Positions 1,879 through 20,714 of a stretch of 32,941 nucleotides of DNA are shown piece by piece. The position numbers and the translations under genes are program-made. The notes beneath the pieces were generated by a model that saw only the letters and a program-made list of their open reading frames with translations, did no database searches and was not told the DNA's origin. Numbering within the stretch: position 1 is the first letter of the stretch; every line of letters begins with the position of its first letter. This DNA is from Candidatus Daviesbacteria bacterium (lineage in GTDB: Bacteria; Patescibacteriota; Microgenomatia; Daviesbacterales; UBA10151). Location: positions 1 to 32,941 of the forward strand of contig JAUSKZ010000026.1 of NCBI GenBank assembly GCA_030646805.1, written 5' to 3'.

Positions 1879-2691
1879 TTAAGGAATTTGTTTAAGGAAA
1901 CTTAAAGCGCCATAAAGTCCGGAGAGATCTCCCAGCTTTGATTTAACAACCGGGGGAATATTGTTTTGAGGTCGGATTTTTTCCATCTCCCTTTTAATTT
2001 GATCAAAAGGTAAAGACTCCGCGACCCCTCCTCCGAGAATTATTATCTCAGGGGCCCACTTTGAGATTATCCGGTTTAGACCCCAAGCGAGATGCTCTGC
2101 CACCTCAGTCCAAGCTGTCGGGTCGGTTAACTCCCCGGCCGGAGTACCATAAATTTTTTCAATCCCGGTGCCGGAAATCAAACTTTCCCACTCCTGGCCG
2201 TTCTTGAGTGTCATATGACCAACATCATCTTTAATACTGGCGGGGTCTAATTTGCCGTCGATTACCTGGGCTCCGCCCACTCCGGTACTGAGGGTCAGAT
2301 AGGCAACATGTTTAAAACCAATACCTGCGCCATAAGTTGCTTCTCCCAAGGCTGCCAAGGCAGCGTCATTTTCTAAATATACAGGAGAGTTGGTAACCGC
2401 CATCAAATCTTCTTTAATTGGCTGGTTTATCCAAAGAGGCAAGTGAGGAGCCTGGCTTAGAGTTGATTTATCAGGAGTTAACAAGCCGGGCAGGCCAACC
2501 ATAGTTTGAGTTATTAAGTGACTTTCTGAGATAGTAAGATAGTTTTTGATCTGGGTGATCGCTTGGTGGTAGTTTTGGGGTGTCTCAAAGATTTCGACGT
2601 CACTTAACTCCTCGGAATCACTTAAAGCCAGTCGGGTTTTGGTCCCACCAATATCCAAAAGGAGTAACATCTCTAAATTATACATCTTCAC
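1879..2691 (-). CDS. ROK-family sugar kinase (glucokinase-like)
   Basis: LLLDIGGTKTRLALSDS phosphate motif, YLENDAALAALGEA, TLSTGVGGAQVIDGKL; the CxCGxxGC zinc motif is not present. Confidence 0.87.
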   Translation of the reverse strand: MKMYNLEMLLLLDIGGTKTRLALSDSEELSDVEIFETPQNYHQAITQIKNYLTISESHLITQTMVGLPGLLTPDKSTLSQAPHLPLWINQPIKEDLMAVTNSPVYLENDAALAALGEATYGAGIGFKHVAYLTLSTGVGGAQVIDGKLDPASIKDDVGHMTLKNGQEWESLISGTGIEKIYGTPAGELTDPTAWTEVAEHLAWGLNRIISKWAPEIIILGGGVAESLPFDQIKREMEKIRPQNNIPPVVKSKLGDLSGLYGALSFLKQIP

Positions 2692-2737
2692 TTACATATT
2701 TACCTTTTTAGCTTTTCTTTGGTATATTACAAAAACA

Positions 2738-3706
2738 ATGATTGATTTAAAGGAACCTTTTGAGACTGAAACTGAAAGTTTAAGCGCTGAGGGGCTTTAT
2801 CTACAGGAAATTGACCGGGCACCTCTTCTAACTCACCAACAAGAGATATTTTTGGCCCGATCTATCAAACGTGGTGATAGAGCCAAAGTAGCCTTGGATC
2901 TTGAGCCACCACCGATTCTAGAAGAGCGCAGATTAGGGTTTGAATCAGCGATCAGGTTAGGTGAGGTAGCCAGGTCAAGGATGATAGAATCTAATTTAAG
3001 GCTAGTCGTGTCAGTTGCTAAACATAGTTTGGGTAAAGGTTTACCGCTTTTGGATCTAGTTCAAGAGGGAAACTTCGGTTTATTCAGAGCTATTGAAAAA
3101 TTTAACCCAGACAGAGGTTTTAAGTTTGGTACTTATGCTTACCGGTGGATTAGACAAGCAGTCGAGAGGGCTGTTAAAGATAAATCCAGAACAATCAGGG
3201 TGCCTATTCCTATGGTTGAGGAAGGACACACTGTTATTGGGAGAATGCGTAGGGCGGAAGTCTTCTTAGGTAATATGTTGGGGCGGGATCCAAGTTTAAA
3301 AGAGACAGCTCAAGAGATCGGAGTTCCGACAGACCAGCTTGAATTTTTATTATCTTTATTTAATAGACCGGATTCGTTAAACTCAAAAAAAGCGGTCACA
3401 GATATAGACGGAGAAGATGTTTACAACTTAGTTGCTGATAAAACTACGCCTGTCCCGGAAGAACAATCGTTTATCCAAAGTTTGAGAAGAGACTTGAGAA
3501 GTATTTTTGATGATATATTAACAGCAAAAGAGAGAGGAGCTCTTCTTTTGCGGTTTGGTTTGAACGGTGAGGCTGGGATGGCGTATGAACAGATTGGAAA
3601 TAGATTGGGATTTTCCCGGGAATCAGCTAGGCAGACTGAAGCTAGAGCTTTGGAAAAACTACGGGATCCGAAGATAAGGGATAGACTAAAGGATTATTTG
3701 ACCTAA
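2738..3706 (+). CDS. Sigma-70 family RNA polymerase sigma factor (paralog 1)
   Basis: Region 2 '[50 protein letters not shown]', region 4 'FSRESARQTEARALEKLRDP'. Start moved from ORF start 2639 to ATG 2738, after TATATT at 2723. Confidence 0.93.
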   Translation: MIDLKEPFETETESLSAEGLYLQEIDRAPLLTHQQEIFLARSIKRGDRAKVALDLEPPPILEERRLGFESAIRLGEVARSRMIESNLRLVVSVAKHSLGKGLPLLDLVQEGNFGLFRAIEKFNPDRGFKFGTYAYRWIRQAVERAVKDKSRTIRVPIPMVEEGHTVIGRMRRAEVFLGNMLGRDPSLKETAQEIGVPTDQLEFLLSLFNRPDSLNSKKAVTDIDGEDVYNLVADKTTPVPEEQSFIQSLRRDLRSIFDDILTAKERGALLLRFGLNGEAGMAYEQIGNRLGFSRESARQTEARALEKLRDPKIRDRLKDYLT

Positions 3707-3709
3707 AAA

Positions 3710-4738
3710 ATGGTAGTTGAAAATAAACAAGAAATTATCCAATTCGATCCGGAAATTTATTTGATTGAGAAAGAAGCAGCTAATTTGAGGGTTGGAGACT
3801 TAGTGGTTGATAGTCCGCTGAATATGTATTTTCGGGATATAACTCAGTTTCCACTTTTGACCCTGGCTGAGGAAAAGAGAATGACTCGGAGTTTTGATAG
3901 AGCCAGGCGGTTGCGGACTGAGTTGGAAAGTCGGGGAGAAAATTCTATTTTAGTCGATCAAGCCCGAGGACGAGAGAGACTGCTTCGAAATGGCTTGACT
4001 GAGGCCAATCTTAGGTTGGTGGTGGCTATGGCCAAAAGGTATAGTGGTAGAGGGGTCGAGGCGTCTGATTTAATTCAGATGGGAAACGAAGGTTTGATGA
4101 AAGCTGTTGAGAAATTTGATTGGAAAAAGGGTTTTAAGTTTTCAACTTACGCTACCTGGTGGATTAGACAAGCGGTCTCTCGTGGTGTAATTGACGAGGG
4201 TCGAACAATTAGAATTCCTGTTCACTTTATTCCGGGTATTAATGCCTTAAATAGAACCAGGACTCAGTTGGAACGTGAAAGAGAAAGCGGTGATATCAGT
4301 CTGGCTGAAATAGCTGAAGCTATGGGTATACCCGAAGCAAAAGCTTTAGAGCTACATCAAGCGTCTTTAGGGGTCATGTCACTTGACCTGCGGGTAGGAA
4401 GTGACGATGATGACGCTTCTTTCGCCGAGTATTTGCCTGATCTCCAAGCTGATACAGCCCGGGAAGCGGAAGATAATCTCCGGTCTTCTGAAATTCGAAG
4501 AATCCTCGATCAACAAAGTAGTCCAAATCCAGGACAAAGTATAAAACCAATCAAACCAAGACATGTCGAGATTTTTCGAGATAGGCATGGTTTGGACGAT
4601 GGACAACCCAAAACTTTAGGGGTAGTTGCGCAAAGATTCGGAGTTAGCCGGGAAAGGGTCAGACAGATTGAGGGTAAAGTTTTCGAAAAATTGAGGCATC
4701 CATCGGTAACTCGGGAGTTGGCAGTTTTTTTAGATTAA
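3710..4738 (+). CDS. Sigma-70 family RNA polymerase sigma factor (paralog 2)
   Basis: '[58 protein letters not shown]' and '[22 protein letters not shown]'. Immediately follows paralog 1. Confidence 0.93.
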
Positions 4739-4750
4739 TAGTGAATGAGA

Positions 4751-4788
4751 CTATATTCGCTCGCGATTTCAAGGCTCGCGATATAATT
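4751..4788. repeat. 38-bp promoter-like element, copy 1 (inverted partner at 6073-6110)
   Basis: ctatattcgctcgcgatttcaaggctcgcgatataatt; reverse complement matches 36/38 nt of 6073-6110. Contains GCTCGCGAT twice, 15 bp apart. Confidence 0.9.
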
Positions 4789-4797
4789 GAGATAATT

Positions 4798-5823
4798 ATG
4801 GTGGCAGAGGTATTAATCGACAGTCAGCCTACTCAAAGTACTCATCAGGCTGAGGTGCCTCCAATTTTGTTGAATCAACCCTCCCCTTTTTTAGAGATGG
4901 GGAAAGCCAATGGAGATTTAAACCCAACAGCCCTTTATTATAAGGATATTGATCAGGCTAAGTTGTTAACTGCCCGAGATGAAAAGACTTTAGCCCAGAC
5001 AATTGAGAGAGGTAAGCAAGCTTATCAAATTTTACAAACTAGAGACGATTCCGACCCCCAAGTGCTGTCTCGTTTTAACCGATTGATTTCCTCCGGTGAA
5101 AAAGCCAGATTAAGATTAATTGAAGCCAATTTAAGGCTGGTTGTTTCGGTAGCCAAAAAATATATGGGTCGTGGTTTACCGCTGGATGATTTAATCCAGG
5201 AGGGGAATATCGGCCTAGCCCGGGCAGTTGAGAAATTTGAGTGGCGACAGGGTTTTAGGTTTTCAACCTATGCCCATTGGTGGATTAGACAAGGAGTCTC
5301 AAGGGCTCTGGCAGATCAGGCGAGAACAATTCGAATCCCGGTTCATGTCGGCGTAAAGATCCAACAATCCATTAGTGCTGCCCGGAAGCTGGAACAAGAC
5401 TTAGAGCGGGAACCAACTATCGACGAGATAGCTGTTGAACTAAAATGGAAGCCCAAGAGAGTTGAAGAGATTTTCTTGGCTGCCCAGCAACACCGGTTAG
5501 TCTCCCTAGATACTCCAATTGGTGAGGATGAAGGGGATACTACGATTGGAGATTTGGTAGATTCTGATGTAGATACTGCAGAAGAGGCAGTTCAAGCTAC
5601 CAGTCGGTCAACAATTGACGAGGTTTTAGGAGAGTTAAATAAAAACGAACAAAGAGTATTGAGGTTACGGTTTGGCTTAACAGATGGAAATGCGAGAACC
5701 TTACAAGAAGTTGGGGATGAATTGGATGTCAGTCGGGAGAGGATCAGGCAAATTGAAGCTGAGGCACTGGGTAAATTAAGACGCTCAAAAAATGCTGCCA
5801 AACTAAAGGGGTTGCAAGACTGA
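4798..5823 (+). CDS. Sigma-70 family RNA polymerase sigma factor (paralog 3, most RpoD/SigA-like)
   Basis: '[74 protein letters not shown]', 'DVSRERIRQIEAEALGKLR'. ATG 4798 preferred over ORF start 4741 because TATAAT (4782-4787) lies just upstream. Confidence 0.95.
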   Translation: MVAEVLIDSQPTQSTHQAEVPPILLNQPSPFLEMGKANGDLNPTALYYKDIDQAKLLTARDEKTLAQTIERGKQAYQILQTRDDSDPQVLSRFNRLISSGEKARLRLIEANLRLVVSVAKKYMGRGLPLDDLIQEGNIGLARAVEKFEWRQGFRFSTYAHWWIRQGVSRALADQARTIRIPVHVGVKIQQSISAARKLEQDLEREPTIDEIAVELKWKPKRVEEIFLAAQQHRLVSLDTPIGEDEGDTTIGDLVDSDVDTAEEAVQATSRSTIDEVLGELNKNEQRVLRLRFGLTDGNARTLQEVGDELDVSRERIRQIEAEALGKLRRSKNAAKLKGLQD

Positions 5824-5850
5824 AAAGTTCTGAGGCCTTAGTCTTAATGT

Positions 5851-5984
5851 GTCATTCTGGGGACTCAGAGCGAAGCGTGAGGACTCCAGAATCTATAAAA
5901 CAAAAAGATCCTGGACAAGCTCGCCTCGCTTGCGCTCTGGCCAGCTTCGCGGCTAGGCGGGCGAAGCGGGCCAGGATGACAGAG
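5851..5984. repeat. Intergenic palindromic repeat pair (gtcattctgg...ccagaatc and gatcctgg...ccaggatgac)
   Basis: Two adjacent imperfect hairpins: ATTCTGG/CCAGAAT and ATCCTGG/CCAGGAT; GC-rich 'gcgaagcg' loops. Confidence 0.6.
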
Positions 5985-6072
5985 TGTATATCAGCTTCAA
6001 TCACAACATGAAAGCCTTAGTGAGTTACAAATAGTAAGGGTACAAAATGTGGTGAAGGAACAAGATTTTCGA

Positions 6073-6110
6073 AATTATATCGCGAGCCTTGGATTCGCGA
6101 GCGAATATAG
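6073..6110. repeat. 38-bp promoter-like element, copy 2
   Basis: aattatatcgcgagccttggattcgcgagcgaatatag, directly upstream of sigma paralog 4. Confidence 0.9.
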
Positions 6111-6122
6111 TAAAATTAGAAT

Positions 6123-7475
6123 ATGGTGGTAGAAGCTCCGTTACGCGTTATAACTGACTCGCCCCAAGCCTTAGTGGGGCATCACTCGCTTGAAGTAAAG
6201 GTAGCTCCGCTGCGTGGCGATGAGTTTATCAGATCGTTCCTAGAAAAGAATAATCTTAATACTCCTCAGACTGATCTTATTCTTTGGGCCAGAGCAACCC
6301 CTGAAGTTTGGCAAAGAGAAAGACCTCTGAGAAAAGCCCTGCTTAACCTCTCTTTGTTTGGATTCGGAGAACATAAAATAGCCAAAAGAGTCTCGGATCT
6401 TTTTAATATCCCCCAAGAAAAAGTAGGAGCGGAGTACCAAAAAGCCCTGGCCAGGCTGGGTGAAAAACAACGGCAAATATCAGTTCAGAAAGACGATAAT
6501 GAGGAGGAGCCTGAGGAATTTGATGAAGAGGTTCATCAGCTAGAGCAAGAAGCGGGGCGTTCGGAGGAGGGTGGTCAAGTTCCAGAAGCACTACAGATGT
6601 ACTTTGATGGACTCCGTTTGGTTCCACTCTTAAATGGCTACGAAGAGAGGTCAAGAGCTTGGGCCTTGGTCCGTCAAAGAGCAATCCGGCAGAGATTGGA
6701 GGCAGATCCTGAGGCTAGTGACCAAAGTTTAAAGGAAGCCTGGGAAAAAGAAAGAATTTTCCGTAATAACTTGATCGAACCCAACTTAAGGCTGGTGGTT
6801 TCGGTGGCTAAAAGATATATGGGCCGGGGTTTACCGCTAGCTGATCTAATTCAGGAGGGAAATATTGGCTTATTCAGAGCTGTTGAAAAGTTTAAACTAG
6901 AAAAAGGTTTTAAATTTTCAACTTATGCTACCTGGTGGATTAGGCAATCAGTGATGAGGGGAATAGCCGATCAGGCGAGGATCATCAGACGTCCAGTTCA
7001 TATGGAGGGAACTCTTAATTTATATAGAAAAGCCAAGGGAGAACTGGAGCAGGATCTAAAAAGAGCTGTTAGTAATAATGAAATAGCTGTTCATATGGGG
7101 GTGAGTGAGGAAAGGGTGGCTATGTTTCAAAAATTCTCAAGTAGCGTTAGTTCCTTGGATAAGCCGATTGGAGAAGACGAATCGACGATCGGTGATTTGG
7201 TTGCCTCAGATCAAAAGCCGGTAGATGCCGAGGCAGAGCAATCTATCCGCCGGGAGAAGATTGCCACCCTGCTAGAAGGAGCTTTAGATCCGAGAGAGGT
7301 GGTTACGATTAAATTGAGGTTTGGACTTGTTGATGGTGGAGAAAGAACTTTAGAGGAGATAGGACGCGAACTTGGCCTGTCTCGGGAGAGAGCCAGGCAA
7401 ATCCAGGAGGAGGCACTGAAGAAATTAAGACACCCTTCCAGATCTAAGGTACTTAAGGATTGGCTGGATGAGTAG
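6123..7475 (+). CDS. Sigma-70 family RNA polymerase sigma factor (paralog 4) with N-terminal extension
   Basis: '[38 protein letters not shown]...[28 protein letters not shown]', '[25 protein letters not shown]'; ~130-aa N-terminal extension containing an HTH-like segment and an acidic linker. Confidence 0.94.
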
Positions 7476-7636: not shown

Positions 7637-9562
7637 ATGGCTTTAAGAGAATTTCAATCACTGACTGATCAAGTGCTAGATAGAGCAGTTGAATTTGGAA
7701 CTCAGAATTTGTCTCTGATTAGGGAGAGAGATTTTGCGGGGGCACTGGCAGCTGATAAAGATAAAGATGAGGCCTTAATTGTCTATGAAAGGTTGCTTGA
7801 AATTCAGGCGGAAGTGGAAGGGTATGCCGGACGTTTTCATCTAACGCCACTTCTGGATCAGACTACTTTTGACAGACCCGGGATGTTTATGGTTGGCAGA
7901 GATCCTGACAGGGTGCCTTTGATAGATGATCGGGAGAGCAGTTTGGATTCCATAGATAAAACAGATGATGACTTATATTTTTCAGCTAAACGCGATAAAA
8001 ACACAGGTTTTCCCCGGGTTGAAGTAGTTTTAGAACCGGCTCCAAAGATAGGATCAAGTCCTGATGTTATCGCTGACGCTCAAACAATAGGATCAAGTCC
8101 TGATGTTATCGCTGACGCTCAAACAATAGAATCAAGTCCTGTTTCCTCACTAAGTTCGGAAATAGAATCAAGTCCTGATGTTATCGTTGACGCTCAAACA
8201 ATTAAAGTACCTCAGTCAGAGCCGGTCATAATAAAGCCTGAAAAGAAAAGAATGACCTTTCATTTGTCCAGCTTACAGAGAGCGGTAATGGAAGCACTTT
8301 TGGTTGGTGATGAGGAAGGGATAACTTACCGTTATCCACGGCTGGTTGATGTATCCCGCCAGTTGTATGGAGATAAATTCAGAGTCAAAGGTCTTTCCGG
8401 ACAAGCATTAAATATCGCCTTCAACTCTATAGGTGGTAGTATTATCACTGCCCGAATAGAGATTATAAATAAAGCCTTGGAAAAAGCTAAAAATCCTCAC
8501 CACCCCTCAGACGAGGAGTTTGATGAGTTTTTCCAAGCCATAACTCAAGGGAATAACGCTGCGATTGGGGTTGTGGATAGAGCTGCCAGACGTAAGATTA
8601 CTTTTGCTCAGTTTCAAGAGAAGTTCAGACTTGTTACCGGGGTAGAGTTTAGTCTTCCGCCAAAGGCCACCCAGGATTCAGGGGTTGAACTCCTAAATGG
8701 CGTTCAGGAAGAGGGTTTAGACATGGCTACCACGGCTGTTACCGTTCCTTTTCTAGATTCTGACAGTAGTAATGGTAATGGTGCATCTAAGCCTCAAGAA
8801 GAACTCAACATCTCTTCCGATCAACTGAATTTTACCTGGCCTGAGATGTTGCTCTTGGCTCGAGACTTAATTGGAGTTGGTGTTGATGATGATGAAGAGA
8901 AGAGGTTTCTAGTCTCTTGCTTTGGAAATTTACGAGCTAACTCCGGAGTTGTATCCTTGTCGGAGAACCCTGAAACAGTCCTAAGACTTGAGAAGAAGCT
9001 GGGATTACTAAATGGTCCTAAAGGGAAAGAGATGGTGAGATTAATTGATAATCCGCAGATCCAAGCAGTTTTAGCTATTTATGACCGGCTTAGATCTGAC
9101 TCAATAAGTCCCGAGCCAAGTGAGGTAGTTAGTCCTCCTCCGGTTGAGGTAACTACTCCCATAGGTCGAACTACTCTTCTTCCTCCCAGGATAGTGCCTC
9201 AACATAGACGGCGGGAAGCAAATATGACCAAGGATGGACCTCCGGAATTAACTACAGCTGAGAAGTTAGTTCTTGTAGCCGGGATACTTAAGTTAAAACC
9301 TCATCAATTGAGAGAGAGAGGTATTGACCTAACTCCAGAAGATTATGCTTTACTAAGATCAATGGATCATCATTACCGAACTGACCCAAAAGTTAGGGGT
9401 GCCTTTAATGTGGCTCAAAGAACTGTATCTGGGAAGGTGAGGGAGATTAGATTTGGACTCGATCTTGGAATAATAAGCAAAGAGGATTTACCTGAGGATT
9501 TAAGAAGGATAGTCCATATTATCTCTCCCAAAAAAGCCCAAGTAGAAGTAGGTAAGATATGA
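7637..9562 (+). CDS. Hypothetical 641-aa protein linked to the sigma array; internal 13-aa tandem repeats
   Basis: Long ORF with own promoter; IGSSPDVIADAQT repeats; ATGA overlap (9559-9562) with gnd. Possible HTH-like segments; no family recognised. Confidence 0.75.
   Translation: MALREFQSLTDQVLDRAVEFGTQNLSLIRERDFAGALAADKDKDEALIVYERLLEIQAEVEGYAGRFHLTPLLDQTTFDRPGMFMVGRDPDRVPLIDDRESSLDSIDKTDDDLYFSAKRDKNTGFPRVEVVLEPAPKIGSSPDVIADAQTIGSSPDVIADAQTIESSPVSSLSSEIESSPDVIVDAQTIKVPQSEPVIIKPEKKRMTFHLSSLQRAVMEALLVGDEEGITYRYPRLVDVSRQLYGDKFRVKGLSGQALNIAFNSIGGSIITARIEIINKALEKAKNPHHPSDEEFDEFFQAITQGNNAAIGVVDRAARRKITFAQFQEKFRLVTGVEFSLPPKATQDSGVELLNGVQEEGLDMATTAVTVPFLDSDSSNGNGASKPQEELNISSDQLNFTWPEMLLLARDLIGVGVDDDEEKRFLVSCFGNLRANSGVVSLSENPETVLRLEKKLGLLNGPKGKEMVRLIDNPQIQAVLAIYDRLRSDSISPEPSEVVSPPPVEVTTPIGRTTLLPPRIVPQHRRREANMTKDGPPELTTAEKLVLVAGILKLKPHQLRERGIDLTPEDYALLRSMDHHYRTDPKVRGAFNVAQRTVSGKVREIRFGLDLGIISKEDLPEDLRRIVHIISPKKAQVEVGKI
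8051..8203 (+). repeat. 39-bp in-frame tandem repeat (2 identical copies, 1 partial, 1 near-identical)
   Basis: ggatcaagtcctgatgttatcgctgacgctcaaacaata at 8051-8089 and 8090-8128 (identical), partial at 8129-8140, variant at 8165-8203. Confidence 0.9.
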
Positions 9563-15081: not shown

Positions 15082-15390
15082 ATGCTTGATATCCCCCGGC
15101 CTCCAGATCCGTACTCTATGGGTTTTGACGAAAGAACGTTGGAGGAGTTAACTCCTGCTGAGTTGGAAGTTGCCAGACGGGTAATTTATAGTAAATTAGG
15201 TTTGGACCCCGACAAAATAGATGATGATAAAGTTAGGACTTATGAATCACCAGTCCCGGAAGATGCCAAATCTCCTGGGATTATTAAGATTGACGTCTTC
15301 AAGACAAATAATCCAGATATTTTCCTTCAAGAACTTAACTCTCCAGATGGAGAAAAGAGATGGTTAATTGGGCCAGACCAAGATATCTGA
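15082..15390 (+). CDS. Hypothetical protein (102 aa as called; true N-terminus probably at 14993 with a frameshift near 15049)
   Basis: Upstream ATG 14993 after TATACT encodes MEQESSEKKLEVFKANFEQG; one extra base in the G-run 15049-15051 would read on into IDDILESAEVMLDIPRPPD. Confidence 0.6.
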   Translation: MLDIPRPPDPYSMGFDERTLEELTPAELEVARRVIYSKLGLDPDKIDDDKVRTYESPVPEDAKSPGIIKIDVFKTNNPDIFLQELNSPDGEKRWLIGPDQDI

Positions 15391-15393
15391 AAA
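15314..15393 (+). repeat. 80-bp direct repeat, copy 1 (3' end of the 102-aa CDS)
   Basis: About 6 mismatches over 80 nt versus 17843-17922. Confidence 0.9.
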
Positions 15394-15519
15394 TCAGTAG
15401 TAATTTTACCTGCCCACATCCCTCTCCAACCTTTTAAGATTTTTTCTAAAGTTGGGTCTATAAAATTCATCTTTACCACAGCATAGCTATATCATTTGAT
15501 CTGATATAATCTAACAAGA

Positions 15520-15900
15520 ATGCCTAAAGGGAAGAGGGTTGGTAAATTTAGTAAGGCTAGGTCAAAAGCAAAAACATATTATTTTAGGTATTGGTCGGGC
15601 CATGAAAAGATAACGCCAGCTTTTAAAAAGAAAGTTCTAGTTACTAGATCGGGTTGGGACCACCTGATAAATCCACCGCATAAACGTACAAAGGTTGAAC
15701 AGATGGAAAGGTTTAGGATCCTTCCGCTCGCAAGAAAGCTGCTAGAGACGGCTCAAACCTTTCAGGAGCATAGAAAGGATAACCTAGGGCATTATTTTGC
15801 CTTTAGTGGATATATTGGAGGGAGAAAAATTAAAGTAATAGTTAGGTCAAAAACTTTTGAAGGACAGAAATACTTTTACTCTTTAATGGTTCTTTGGTGA
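15520..15900 (+). CDS. Putative BECR/RelE-like toxin nuclease domain protein (126 aa)
   Basis: 'VLVTRSGWDHLINPPHKRTKVEQMERFRILPLARKLLETAQ...HYFAFSGYIGGRKIKVIVRSKTFEGQKYFYSLMVLW' resembles PBECR-type small nucleases. TATAAT 9 nt upstream of ATG. Confidence 0.5.
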   Translation: MPKGKRVGKFSKARSKAKTYYFRYWSGHEKITPAFKKKVLVTRSGWDHLINPPHKRTKVEQMERFRILPLARKLLETAQTFQEHRKDNLGHYFAFSGYIGGRKIKVIVRSKTFEGQKYFYSLMVLW

Positions 15901-16067
15901 GACGTCTTCCACTTTATGCAGGTGCAATAATGGGGTCAGGGTCAAGCCCTCCGCCTCACTTAGTATTCTATGTTTTTTCATCTCTTCAGTCAAGTATGAG
16001 GTGAGTAAGCAGGGACTAGTTTATCAGAAGTCTATTCTATTTCTTCGGGCTTAGTTATAATCCAATT

Positions 16068-16610
16068 GTGTTAACCGACAAACAAATCAAAAGATTAATT
16101 AAACAAAGGAATATTTCCGTTGAACCTTTTGATGAAAAGAATGTAAAGGCAGGAAAACTAGATATTCACCTCGGACAATTTATTCTTAAACCTAAATCTT
16201 CTACCAAAGTAATTGATCCACAGCAACTAAATTTTAATCCTGAATATACAAAATATGACTTAATGAAAGATGGTTATATCTTAAAACCAGGTGAATTTAT
16301 ACTTGGACAGACACTTGAATTGATTGGCTTAGACTCCAATACAGGAATGTTTCTTGATGGTAGTACAACAATGGCCAGGCTTGGATTAACAATTCATCAA
16401 TCCTCTATGTTTGTACCACCTGGTCAAGACCCTCACATATTAACTCTAGAGATTCTCAATTCTGGAATATGGAAGGTGAGATTGTCCTATAAATTAAGAG
16501 TGGGTAAAGTTGTCGTGTTTAGGTATTCAGAGAATAATACTACCGATGCCAAGGTTTTTAATCAATATAATGGTCAGAAAGAAGTTACGGGAGCAATTTT
16601 TAGGAAATAA
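16068..16610 (+). CDS. dCTP deaminase/dUTPase-family protein (divergent)
   Basis: GTG start after TATAAT (16056-16061). MLTDKQIKRLIKQ, DGSTTMARLGLTIHQSSMFVPPGQDPHILTLEILNSG. Confidence 0.75.
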   Translation: MLTDKQIKRLIKQRNISVEPFDEKNVKAGKLDIHLGQFILKPKSSTKVIDPQQLNFNPEYTKYDLMKDGYILKPGEFILGQTLELIGLDSNTGMFLDGSTTMARLGLTIHQSSMFVPPGQDPHILTLEILNSGIWKVRLSYKLRVGKVVVFRYSENNTTDAKVFNQYNGQKEVTGAIFRK

Positions 16611-16614
16611 AACA

Positions 16615-16740
16615 GTGAATGAGGTTTATGAAGTTATTTATCATCCATTTCCAGCCAGAGAGATGGTCTGTGTTAAAGAATTACCTTTAGGATCTAAAAC
16701 CAAGCTCATTATCGTTATCTCATTGGATAAAACTATATAG
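16615..16740 (+). pseudogene. C-terminal remnant of a RidA/YjgF-family gene
   Basis: VNEVYEVIYHPFPAREMVCVKELPLGSKTKLIIVISLD matches the RidA C-terminal pattern (NevY...f..pPAR..v.V..LP.ga.vei..ia); N-terminal two thirds absent. Confidence 0.55.
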
Positions 16741-16798
16741 AGCTTGTCAAAAGTTTCATTGATGACAGTAGAAGGAACAATTTTCAAAGGACATCAAT

Positions 16799-17050
16799 CT
16801 ACTTTCTTTGTGGCATCCCCAGTTTTGCCTGCTCACATTGACCCTTAACAATAGGTACATCTAAAAATGTTTCGCAATTATCACAAAGCGTATGCATTTC
16901 GCCATCTATGTGCTCATTGAGCTTAATTTCCTGCAATCCATTTGCAAGTACGTAACCATCATAAGTTAAATATTTACTTTGCCATTCGTCAATTTTTTCA
17001 TTGCATTTAGGGCATCTCATTGTACTGTTGATAACATTGTATACTCCCAT
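16799..17050 (-). CDS. Small zinc-ribbon protein
   Basis: MRCPKCNEKID...LCDNCETF, two CxxC knuckles. Confidence 0.55.
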   Translation of the reverse strand: MGVYNVINSTMRCPKCNEKIDEWQSKYLTYDGYVLANGLQEIKLNEHIDGEMHTLCDNCETFLDVPIVKGQCEQAKLGMPQRK

Positions 17051-17121
17051 ATTAGACCGTAAACTTTACTAGATGTTTATTATATCAACTAGGTGAAATC
17101 TATAAAATATCCGAACTTAAT

Positions 17122-17793
17122 TTATTTAGCTGTCATTAAGGCGAAAATCCACTTCTCTTCAAAACTGGGAATATACACATCTCTTCTATAAACTTTTGCA
17201 AATCCTTCAAGTAACCTAGCTAATAAATACCTATTCCTGTACGCATACTCAACCGACAGTAGTCCACCTTCTTCTAAATGACTACCAAGAACTCTAAAAA
17301 AATTAAGAGAGTAAAGATTGGTTGATGGAGTCGAGTCTCTGTTCTGCCATCTATAAGGGTCAGTTAGATCCCAAACAATGAGATCATAGTGTTCTTTTGA
17401 TTGTTGAACAAATTTTCCGGCATCTTCATAATGTAATTTAAGTCTCGGATCGTCAAAAGCTCCTTGGTGCCACTGTGGTAAATATTCCTTACAGATTGCT
17501 ACTAAACCTGGATCGATATCAACCATTGTTACTTTTTCTACCGTAGGTTGTTTTAAGATCTGTTTTGCTGTTGCACCCTCACCACCACCCAATATAAGTG
17601 CAGTTTTGATTCTTGGATTAAACTTAAAAGCTGGGCAAACTAAAGCTGAGTGGTATTGGCCCTGATCAGATTCAGCTGACTGCAAATCACCGTCTAGGAA
17701 TAAACACTTACCATATTCAGGTGTCACTGCTATGGTAACTCGTTGGAATGGAGTAGTCGTATCAATAAGTATTTCAGTCCGCTCGTCTAACAT
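17122..17793 (-). CDS. speE: Spermidine synthase-like (polyamine aminopropyltransferase) methyltransferase-fold protein
   Basis: LFLDGDLQSAESDQGQYHSALVCPAF, LILGGGEGATAKQILKQPTVEKVTMVDIDPGLV, DLIVWDLTDP. Confidence 0.82.
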   Translation of the reverse strand: MLDERTEILIDTTTPFQRVTIAVTPEYGKCLFLDGDLQSAESDQGQYHSALVCPAFKFNPRIKTALILGGGEGATAKQILKQPTVEKVTMVDIDPGLVAICKEYLPQWHQGAFDDPRLKLHYEDAGKFVQQSKEHYDLIVWDLTDPYRWQNRDSTPSTNLYSLNFFRVLGSHLEEGGLLSVEYAYRNRYLLARLLEGFAKVYRRDVYIPSFEEKWIFALMTAK

Positions 17794-17842
17794 GGTGGTA
17801 ATTATATTACTTTTGTGGTTAGAGTTCGAATTGTATTCCCTT

Positions 17843-17922
17843 CAGACATTTTCCTTCAAGAACTTACTTCTCCGGATGGAGAAAAGAGATGGTTAATTGG
17901 ACCAGATCAAGATATCTGAAAG
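17843..17922 (+). pseudogene. Displaced/duplicated 3' tail of the 102-aa CDS (copy 2 of the 80-bp direct repeat)
   Basis: Encodes IFLQELTSPDGEKRWLIGPDQDI*; upstream sequence is unrelated to copy 1. Confidence 0.88.
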
Positions 17923-17946
17923 TACTAACAAGCTAGTTGTGGCAGG
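17921..17946 (+). repeat. Duplicated tRNA-Trp 3' end plus flank (26 bp, 23 identical to 20621-20646)
   Basis: agtactaacaagctagttgtggcagg versus agcactaaagagctagttgtggcagg; 16-nt perfect core. Confidence 0.75.
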
Positions 17947-18030
17947 CCCAACAGGGTTATCAGAAAAATTTCAGGCAGAGATAAGGCAGAGTTTCCGAAA
18001 ATTAATTATATTGGACTTGAGCCAAAGTAG

Positions 18031-19053
18031 TTAAGCTGCAAGTAGAGATATAATCCGTGAAGCAGGGAATTTTTTATCTAATCCTTTGGATCGTATTTTT
18101 CTTAAGAAGCTCGCAGGCACATCTTCTCGGTTTTCTGCAGATTGAAAAACTTCTTCAACATCATCTGTTAAAAATTCTGAGCCAATTTCCCTAAGTGAGT
18201 CTTTAAATTCGCCAAAGTTTAGACTTGATATATCAAGCGTGTTTTGTAAAACGCGTTGAAGTAGTGATCTTGCAAGTAATATATCGTCGACTTGTTTTTC
18301 GAACATAAAGGCACGCAGAGCTTCGCTTTCATAGTCGAAATTATAAGGAGAGTTGCTAAATTCTCGAGATACCTTATCGGGTAGTTTCTTCTTTAGATCA
18401 ATATATAATCCAGTGTGCACAGCTCCAATAACTAACAATACTTGGATTTCTTTTTTGTCTTTTAGGTCAGGGCTATTTTGGATTATGCTTTGAACAGTGG
18501 GGTCAAGCTGGGAAAGCATATATTCTTCTCGTTGTTTTTGAATCAGAGCAAATGCTTTAACATACTCTTGCCAGTCATTGATAAAATCACTAAAATCTTC
18601 ATGTGACCTGTTTGCCGGTGAATACATAAAGTAGAGAGCTCCTTGGAGTCCAAACGTTCTGAGTAATCCTGTACTCTGTTCGAGTAAATGGTGGTTCAAA
18701 GGAAGATCGATATAGCCGAATGGTTTTTGAGTGTTATATCTAGCCTGAAGTTCGGATAGATAAATAGCATACCTTGAGTTGTCTAATGATACATTGTCTC
18801 TTGCAAGTTCCTCTTCTGGAGTTCTCCTGCCGTCAATAACTTCTTGAGTATTTCTTTGCAAATCATGATCCCAGCCAACTGATTCATCAATTACAATGTC
18901 AGCTTGCTCTATGTGTTCTCTCTGCAGTGCATAATCCCTTTTTGTACCATGTTCACCGAAGAAAAATTTATAGTAAATATTCGGCCCACCCGGAACTTCT
19001 TTTTGCAAAGGGTAGGGCGCATCCTTTAATTTTAAATCGTTCAGAATTTCCAT
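18031..19053 (-). CDS. Hypothetical 340-aa protein, possibly TraB/Tiki/EreA-like
   Basis: FFGEHGTKRDYALQREHIEQADIVIDESVGWD...VLLVIGAVHTGLYIDLKKKLP suggests this superfamily, weakly. Confidence 0.5.
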   Translation of the reverse strand: MEILNDLKLKDAPYPLQKEVPGGPNIYYKFFFGEHGTKRDYALQREHIEQADIVIDESVGWDHDLQRNTQEVIDGRRTPEEELARDNVSLDNSRYAIYLSELQARYNTQKPFGYIDLPLNHHLLEQSTGLLRTFGLQGALYFMYSPANRSHEDFSDFINDWQEYVKAFALIQKQREEYMLSQLDPTVQSIIQNSPDLKDKKEIQVLLVIGAVHTGLYIDLKKKLPDKVSREFSNSPYNFDYESEALRAFMFEKQVDDILLARSLLQRVLQNTLDISSLNFGEFKDSLREIGSEFLTDDVEEVFQSAENREDVPASFLRKIRSKGLDKKFPASRIISLLAA

Positions 19054-19092
19054 ATTAGAATTTACTTCCTGTATATTTCGTCATGAGTGCCT

Positions 19093-19130
19093 TGCAGGAA
19101 GCCGAGGGATTTTAGCCCTCGGAACTTCAC
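19093..19130. repeat. REP-like hairpin repeat (copy A)
   Basis: tgcaggaagccgagggattttagccctcggaacttcac; stem CCGAGGG/CCCTCGG. Confidence 0.7.
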
Positions 19131-19864
19131 TTTGAGATAAACCGCTCTGATACTGGATAAATGGCTCGGAATATAGCCCTTGAGAAATCTGCTCCTGCAG
19201 CAACGAATTCAGGAACCAGCATTTCGGATAAATTGTATTGTTCTAACCTATTGGGCAATCCTTTTAGTTGTTTATTTAATTCATCCACTAATATAAAACC
19301 TTTAGGATTTTTACTAGTGGTTTCATCGAATAAAACTGACCATCTATTTTTCTCAGATTGGATTTTAAGAAATATTGAAGCTTGATCAGTAATACTAATA
19401 ACTTTCCCCAAGAAATGCTCTGATTCCTCAGTTGTGTCTGCAATAACAGTAGATAAATCCGGTATAGATTTAGCAGATTCAGGTTTTGTGATTGCTATAA
19501 TAGGATGAATTCCCATTGTAGCACCAAAATCTGTATCAAAAAATAAAATAAACAATGCAGGTTGCTGGTCTTGTCGAGCTCTTATAGCATTTGATCTAAA
19601 AGCATCCACTGCAGCATCTGTGGCATAGAATGCAGAGAGAGTAGCTGGTCCTAAATAACTTTTCCTAACTCCTAAACGATCAACGACTTCATCTAATCGG
19701 TTGTGAACTCGAGATGAGTTCGATCTAATTAGTTCTAATTCTTCTTCTTGAGTAGGTGTAATTACTTTCTGAACTGCTTGAGTTGCTCGTGCGATATCAA
19801 ACGGTTGATAGCCTGTCTGGCTAAGGGCTTTCCTAATGATGTATGAGTCAGGATTTTCTATCAT
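19127..19864 (-). CDS. Hypothetical 245-aa protein
   Basis: Long complete ORF; no family recognised. Confidence 0.55.
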   Translation of the reverse strand: MIENPDSYIIRKALSQTGYQPFDIARATQAVQKVITPTQEEELELIRSNSSRVHNRLDEVVDRLGVRKSYLGPATLSAFYATDAAVDAFRSNAIRARQDQQPALFILFFDTDFGATMGIHPIIAITKPESAKSIPDLSTVIADTTEESEHFLGKVISITDQASIFLKIQSEKNRWSVLFDETTSKNPKGFILVDELNKQLKGLPNRLEQYNLSEMLVPEFVAAGADFSRAIFRAIYPVSERFISK

Positions 19865-19996
19865 AATGAATCAGTGAATAATAATCTAAATGAAGATGAT
19901 TGTCAAACTATGGGATTATTTTACAGGGACTGGTTGACTTGTGGTGAGTTTGCCAGAAGTCGTTTTATTTCTCCAGGTTTGAGGTATAATTCAACA

Positions 19997-20584
19997 ATGG
20001 TTAAAGCAGTTATATTTGATGCTGATGGAGTCTTAATCAATGCTGAGCGGTTTAGTCTTCAACTGGAGAGAGAACATGGAATCTCGACTGAAAAAACCTC
20101 CTCTTTTTTCCAGGGAATATTTCAAGACTGTTTGATAGGTCAAGCTGATTTAAAAGAGGTGATTGCCAAACATTTATCTGAATGGGGTTGGGATAAATCG
20201 GTAGATGAATTCTTGAACTATTGGTTTAAGTCTGAGCACAAGGTTGATGAGGAGTTAGTTGAATATATTAAGAATTTAAAAGAAAAAGGATTAAAAGTTT
20301 TTGTTGCCACCAATAACGAGAGACATCGAACAGAATACATTATAAACGAGATGGGATTTGGGCAAATTTTTGACAAAGTTTATGGATCGGGTCACATTGG
20401 TTGCAAAAAACCTGACCACCAGTTTTTTCAGCATATCGTAGATGATCAAAATCTAAACAACGATGAGATTTTATTCTGGGATGATACTGAGGAAAATATT
20501 AAGGCTGCTAAAAAGTTTGGGATTAAAGCTGAACTCTACATCAACCTCTCAGACTTTAAAGAAAAAATGGTCTCTTATCTCTAA
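19997..20584 (+). CDS. HAD-superfamily hydrolase
   Basis: VKAVIFDADGVLINAERF, VFVATNNERHRTEYI, GCKKPDHQFFQHIV, ILFWDDTEENIKAAKKFGI. Start refined to ATG 19997, 6 nt after TATAAT 19985-19990. Confidence 0.88.
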   Translation: MVKAVIFDADGVLINAERFSLQLEREHGISTEKTSSFFQGIFQDCLIGQADLKEVIAKHLSEWGWDKSVDEFLNYWFKSEHKVDEELVEYIKNLKEKGLKVFVATNNERHRTEYIINEMGFGQIFDKVYGSGHIGCKKPDHQFFQHIVDDQNLNNDEILFWDDTEENIKAAKKFGIKAELYINLSDFKEKMVSYL

Positions 20585-20639
20585 ACATTTAATGAATTTG
20601 TGAGGTTCATCACAGCTACGAGCACTAAAGAGCTAGTTG

Positions 20640-20714
20640 TGGCAGGGGCGGTAGGACTTGAACCTACAACCGTCGGTTTTGGAAACCGATGCGCTACCAT
20701 TGCGCCACACCCCT
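20640..20714 (-). tRNA. tRNA-Trp (anticodon CCA), 3' CCA encoded
   Basis: AGGGGTGTGGCGCAATGGTAGCGCATCGGTTTCCAAAACCGACGGTTGTAGGTTCAAGTCCTACCGCCCCTGCCA folds as a cloverleaf; loop TTCCAAA. Confidence 0.95.

Follow-up and report, generated by a model that had tools for sequence, protein, structure and literature searches.

Direct repeats at a Daviesbacteria tRNA-Trp gene are best read as scars in an insertion hotspot, which also holds a candidate LPD3-like protein-RNA module

The window, i.e. the whole stretch of DNA that was analyzed, comprises 32,941 nucleotides of a Candidatus Daviesbacteria bacterium (assembly GCA_030646805.1, contig JAUSKZ010000026.1, positions 1 to 32,941 of the forward strand), whose genome is 685 kb with the assembly 90% complete. 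It contains a tRNA-Trp gene in a gene order (M50, tRNA-Thr, tRNA-Thr, tRNA-Trp and, farther on, bgl) that is largely conserved across the family. The features on the 3' side of this gene are as follows.

15082..15390, plus strand: gene X1, a 102-aa ORF with a 137-aa homolog in G005; its 5' part appears frameshifted
15393..17842: block A, between the 3' ends of X1 and X2, with an LPD3-like gene and an RNA, an extra dCTP deaminase gene, p83 and a speE-like gene
17843..17921, plus strand: X2, a truncated copy of the gene X 3' end (92% over 79 nt) that abuts repeat T
17921..17946: distal copy of repeat T, 23/26 identical to the proximal copy
17947..20620: block B, between the T repeats, with p340, p245 and a HAD hydrolase gene
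18031..19053, minus strand: p340, an orphan without a Pfam, PHROG, PADLOC or NCBIfam family and not found in 44 family genomes or in IMG/VR
19127..19864, minus strand: p245, an orphan with weak C-terminal similarity in G005 (contig C20) only
19998..20584, plus strand: HAD-IA family hydrolase
20621..20646: proximal copy (copy 1) of repeat T, 19 nt of tRNA-Trp trailer and 7 nt of tRNA 3' end
20640..20714, minus strand: tRNA-Trp(CCA) gene (ARAGORN, Rfam RF00005), whose 3' end belongs to the proximal copy

The two copies of repeat T lie 2.7 kb apart in direct orientation, with three mismatches in 26 nt and a 16-nt perfect core (AGCTAGTTGTGGCAGG). A match of this grade occurred in 0/100 dinucleotide shuffles of the window, the analytic expectation was 1e-6 per window and about 2e-5 per genome, and whole-genome searches (685 kb, 90% complete) found no third copy. 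These data bear out the direct 23/26 repeat reported in a preliminary description of this DNA and indicate that the similarity does not recur at many other sites. That description had derived the repeat from the 3' flank and 3' end of the tRNA. Both parts are indeed present, but the tRNA contributes just 7 of the 26 nt (20640-20646, the CCA end and four more nucleotides), which is too short to rebuild an interrupted tRNA end, and the other 19 are 3' trailer. The distal copy, placed downstream of tRNA-Trp in the description, is downstream in the tRNA's own direction, i.e. on the minus strand.

Further repeat analysis revealed a second direct repeat that the preliminary description lacked, in which 17843-17921 matches 15314-15392 over 79 nt (92%). 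X2 and the distal T copy meet at 17921, and 17843-17946 is a mosaic that runs from the gene X 3' end into tRNA-Trp trailer, with the junction within about 20 bp; both halves have a second copy elsewhere, at 15314 and 20621. The mosaic thus reads as a putative fossil of an older junction between the gene X 3' end and the tRNA-Trp trailer, with inserted blocks on either side. Between X1 and X2 there are four synonymous differences at about 15 sites and three nonsynonymous ones at about 63. Most of this divergence therefore probably accumulated when the two were both coding, as would be expected if one end arrived with donor DNA. The 5' end of X1 is shorter than that of its 137-aa G005 homolog, with an apparent one-base frameshift that may be an assembly error.

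The genes of blocks A and B are mostly accessory, and the two blocks have a GC content of 36-37%, against 40% for the window. Between the LPD3-like gene and tRNA-Trp lie 4.7 kb with the dCTP deaminase gene, p83, the speE-like gene, the X2/T scar, p340, p245 and the HAD hydrolase gene. Hardly any family genomes have the speE-like gene or p245, and the dCTP deaminase gene is a second copy. As previously described, block B encodes an unknown 340-aa protein, a 245-aa protein and a HAD hydrolase, and no recombinase was found among its ORFs. Nor is it conserved core sequence: p340 occurs in 0/44 family relatives and p245 has just the weak C-terminal match. Neither protein was named by any profile library tried or matched in IMG/VR. 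Single-sequence AlphaFold models of p340 and of the LPD3-like protein (pLDDT 37 and 45, respectively) were of too low quality to search for related folds.

The leaders of the extra dCTP deaminase gene (16005-16064) and the HAD gene (19876-20000) resemble that of the LPD3 gene in G007, a genome of another genus (L122, 9852-9991), and all three have TATAAT about 6-8 nt upstream of the start codon. These features suggest leaderless transcription and promoter reuse in the region. Elsewhere in the window (2639-7475), four consecutive sigma-70-like genes adjoin sugar-metabolism genes (named by eye from translations), which is unusual for so small a genome.

The tRNA-Trp locus was compared with genomes of the same family, none of them of the same genus; the degenerate tRNA-Trp pattern proved too stringent to gather all relatives. 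On the 3' side of tRNA-Trp, the next conserved gene is about 0.3-4.4 kb away in relatives, and bgl is 18.8 kb away in the window. Among the relatives compared, G007 has the best identity at def and fmt, and it keeps the same order of def, fmt, M50, tRNA-Thr, tRNA-Thr, tRNA-Trp and, later, g6pd, gnd and ROK. In G007, 275 bp separate tRNA-Trp from an LPD3-like gene, with g6pd, gnd and ROK farther on. The locus is thus compact there, yet G007 belongs to another genus and has neither gene X nor a T trailer at this place. Most relatives have tRNA-Trp trailers unrelated to that of the window. The trailer of G043, also of another genus, has in common with it CCTGCCACAACTAGCTC(G/T)TTA and a CTCGTAG-YTG block around a dyad. 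In G043 (L041, 7930-8020), the window-like trailer is interrupted by a 35-nt near-perfect hairpin, and a similar ACAGGATCGTTT-hairpin-AAAGGTAGCCC element lies near tRNA genes in G007 (L122, about 9330-9375) and G006 (L037, about 8910-8955). The genes after tRNA-Trp in G043 looked phage-like by eye, but two of them searched against PHROGs and four against Pfam gave no phage match, and a prophage is therefore not proposed.

The locus is best read not as a mobile island that is still intact but as an insertion hotspot with scars. We give a probability of roughly 0.55 to the reading in which insertion-duplication, at a hotspot of gene turnover 3' of tRNA-Trp, left the repeats as scars. In the ancestor, gene X would have been convergent with tRNA-Trp. 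The 26-bp duplication would have arisen when incoming DNA with block B entered at the tRNA trailer, and the 79-bp duplication when block A, whole or in part, went in at the 3' end of gene X. Both events may be due to Campbell-type or homology-facilitated illegitimate recombination of incoming DNA on short homologies, with no dedicated integrase. Insertion-duplication by general or illegitimate recombination is favoured because the repeat is imperfect, lies outside the tRNA and abuts a second duplication, and the tRNA-Trp gene would stay functional since a duplication at its very end leaves it whole. The statistics and uniqueness of the repeat, the abutting duplication, the pattern of X1/X2 divergence, the accessory genes, the 275-bp spacing in G007, the low GC content and the presence of a single tyrosine recombinase in the genome all count for this history. 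Against it, the uninterrupted junction of gene X and tRNA-Trp was not seen in the compared genomes, which are of other genera, and G007 has the LPD3 gene rather than gene X beside tRNA-Trp and thus lends no direct support to the proposed ancestral order. At this place the LPD3 gene may predate the remainder of block A.

It also speaks against the insertion-duplication history that repeats at the 3' end of a tRNA are, a priori, typical of integrase sites. Block B could be a small integrase-less or decayed integrative element that a tyrosine recombinase supplied in trans inserted site-specifically at the tRNA-Trp 3' end, the repeats being attL and attR, although we consider this doubtful. Accessory genes are enclosed by a direct repeat at a tRNA 3' end, and the trailer shared with G043 looks as if delivered by a similar element. 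However, only 7 nt of tRNA fall within the repeat, 3 of its 26 positions are mismatched, and a 79-bp duplication of different sequence adjoins it. No integrase is encoded nearby. The preliminary description had proposed searching for tyrosine recombinases elsewhere, and the search, limited to that class in a 90% complete genome, found a single Xer-like enzyme on contig C8 in addition to confirming that the block has none; the missing part of the genome could still encode an integrase. The repeat core, used as a pattern for attP in 2.9 million IMG/VR viral contigs, gave 35 matches, none beside a tRNA end, and all of these candidates look like coding chance; used for attB in 84,980 genomes, it gave four matches, all by chance.

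The att-flanked island proposed in the preliminary description is therefore retained in part. The block is accessory and the region varies among relatives, but a classic island is not supported, given the absence of an integrase from the block, the single Xer-like tyrosine recombinase of the genome, the slight reach of the repeat into the tRNA and the lack of a related attB or attP in the viral and genome collections searched; it is further disfavoured because a tRNA integrase would not make the abutting, unrelated 79-bp duplication. Site-specific integration at tRNA-Trp is nevertheless possible but unproven, since the resemblance to G043 continues past the tRNA into the trailer. The locus resembles tRNA-associated genomic islands and integrative elements of the Islander/TIGER type (PMC9580842) in its direct repeat of a tRNA 3' end, its accessory cargo and its variability between relatives. 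It differs from them in having no integrase, a length of just 2.7 kb, an imperfect repeat that is nearly all trailer and a second, unrelated duplication next to the repeat.

A tandem duplication of gene X and tRNA-Trp, later eroded to partial copies, would need no foreign insertion, and the duplicated pieces do adjoin in the scar with similar divergence (8% and 12%). We regard it as improbable, as from 17947 on there is no remnant of the tRNA body beyond the 7 nt, and none of the genes in between duplicates another. The repeat could also be a chance resemblance or a processing signal conserved in tRNA trailers, for which short trailer-like words near two other tRNA-Trp genes of the family might speak, but this is very improbable given the expectation of 2e-5 per genome, the exact abutment to X2 and the unrelated trailers of most relatives.

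Homology-facilitated illegitimate recombination, or insertion-duplication after DNA uptake, leaves short duplicated homologies at the ends of the insert without a recombinase gene. The insertion-duplication reading of the tRNA-Trp locus matches such cases in its short duplicated homologies at the insert ends and its lack of a recombinase gene, but differs from them in that the process is read from sequence alone, with no donor seen. Such a scar would represent gene gain beside a tRNA in a streamlined genome without a resident integrase, and it cautions that repeats at a tRNA end are not by themselves proof of an island.

Block A contains a protein gene and a convergent RNA with the following features.

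15520..15900, plus strand: LPD3-like protein gene, 126 aa, 88% to its G007 counterpart, which lies 275 bp from tRNA-Trp
15897..15959, minus strand: structured RNA with a closing stem and two hairpins (63 bits to covariance model R1, which was built partly from this RNA)
15965..15993, minus strand: sigma70-type promoter of the RNA, with TTGACT (15993-15988), a 17-nt spacer and TAGAAT (15970-15965); conserved in G007

The protein scores 22.3 bits against Pfam LPD3 (PF18798), under the curated cut-off of 27, and of seven homologs aligned, five hit LPD3 with E values of 1 or less, the lowest being 1.8e-5. From these alignments it is classed as a distant LPD3 relative, hence LPD3-like. LPD3 is among the domains of elusive function described by Iyer et al. 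2017 (PMC5512222). Genes of this kind are sporadic, being present in 8/374 genomes of the class and 35/380 of the phylum. Identity between the window and G007 at fourfold sites is 42% for the LPD3 gene, 28-44% for core genes and 44% for g6pd, and a recent intergeneric transfer of the LPD3 gene was rejected on the likeness to core g6pd.

After the LPD3 stop, the window and G007 agree at about 95% or more of the next 58 nt. At most LPD3 loci, the DNA after the stop showed a convergent RNA with a closing stem and two hairpins, often behind a terminator; the module spans 15520-15993 in the window, and the other loci are L141-L173 and L176. Two covariance models were built from two subgroup alignments of 10 and 6 sequences hand-picked by eye. 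They found ten further RNAs outside the training set (E 5e-8 to 4e-3), all of which adjoin the stop of an LPD3 gene and run on the other strand. Across the 145 kb searched, the models gave just two other matches at E < 1: L149 (0.027), next to its LPD3 gene, and L162 (0.34), a cross-match between the two models. In total, the models cover the RNA at 26 of 35 LPD3 loci. Covariation was 0.858 against 0.249 in shuffled alignments for the group containing the window's RNA (16/17 pairs changed on both sides) and 0.475 against 0.258 for the other group (14/20 pairs), in counts that use model-fitted alignments and so lean towards the model structure. A TTGACA/TATAAT-like promoter (score of at least 9/12) lies just upstream of the RNA at 20 of the 26 loci, against 8% in shuffled controls. 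No Rfam family reached its gathering score on the LPD3-adjacent RNAs.

The LPD3-like protein and its convergent, promoter-bearing, covarying RNA make up a candidate new protein-RNA module of a toxin-antitoxin-like kind. The layout, size and sporadic distribution are what suggest toxin and RNA-antitoxin functions. We tentatively propose, a little short of even odds, that the tRNA-Trp hotspot holds an undescribed, phylum-sporadic module of this protein and a convergent three-helix RNA of 50-90 nt driven by a sigma70 promoter of its own, which together would form a new toxin-antitoxin or defence system under RNA control. Alternatively, the RNA could be a regulatory RNA or a bidirectional terminator. 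If confirmed, the module, which is testable in the laboratory, would add a new protein-RNA pair to the poorly known accessory systems of these bacteria. No paper linking LPD3 to an RNA was found in the literature searched, outside which most subscription journals lie.

In type III toxin-antitoxin systems, a repeat RNA lies upstream of the toxin in one operon with it. The LPD3 module likewise has a small structured RNA adjoining a small protein gene, but this RNA is convergent on the opposite strand, has its own promoter, is usually single-copy and has a three-helix fold, in contrast to ToxIN, CptIN and TenpIN (reviewed in PMC5086642). The DUF3800-associated RNAs of Rfam (RF02964 and RF02968) are also structured RNAs named after a neighbouring protein gene, and one of them lies near each of two LPD3 modules (L176 and L168); the LPD3-adjacent RNAs, however, occupy other positions and score below gathering. 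In addition, the same RNA family occurs without an adjacent LPD3 gene in three genomes (G405, L184; G555, L186; G658, L183), in the first of which it forms a tandem pair.
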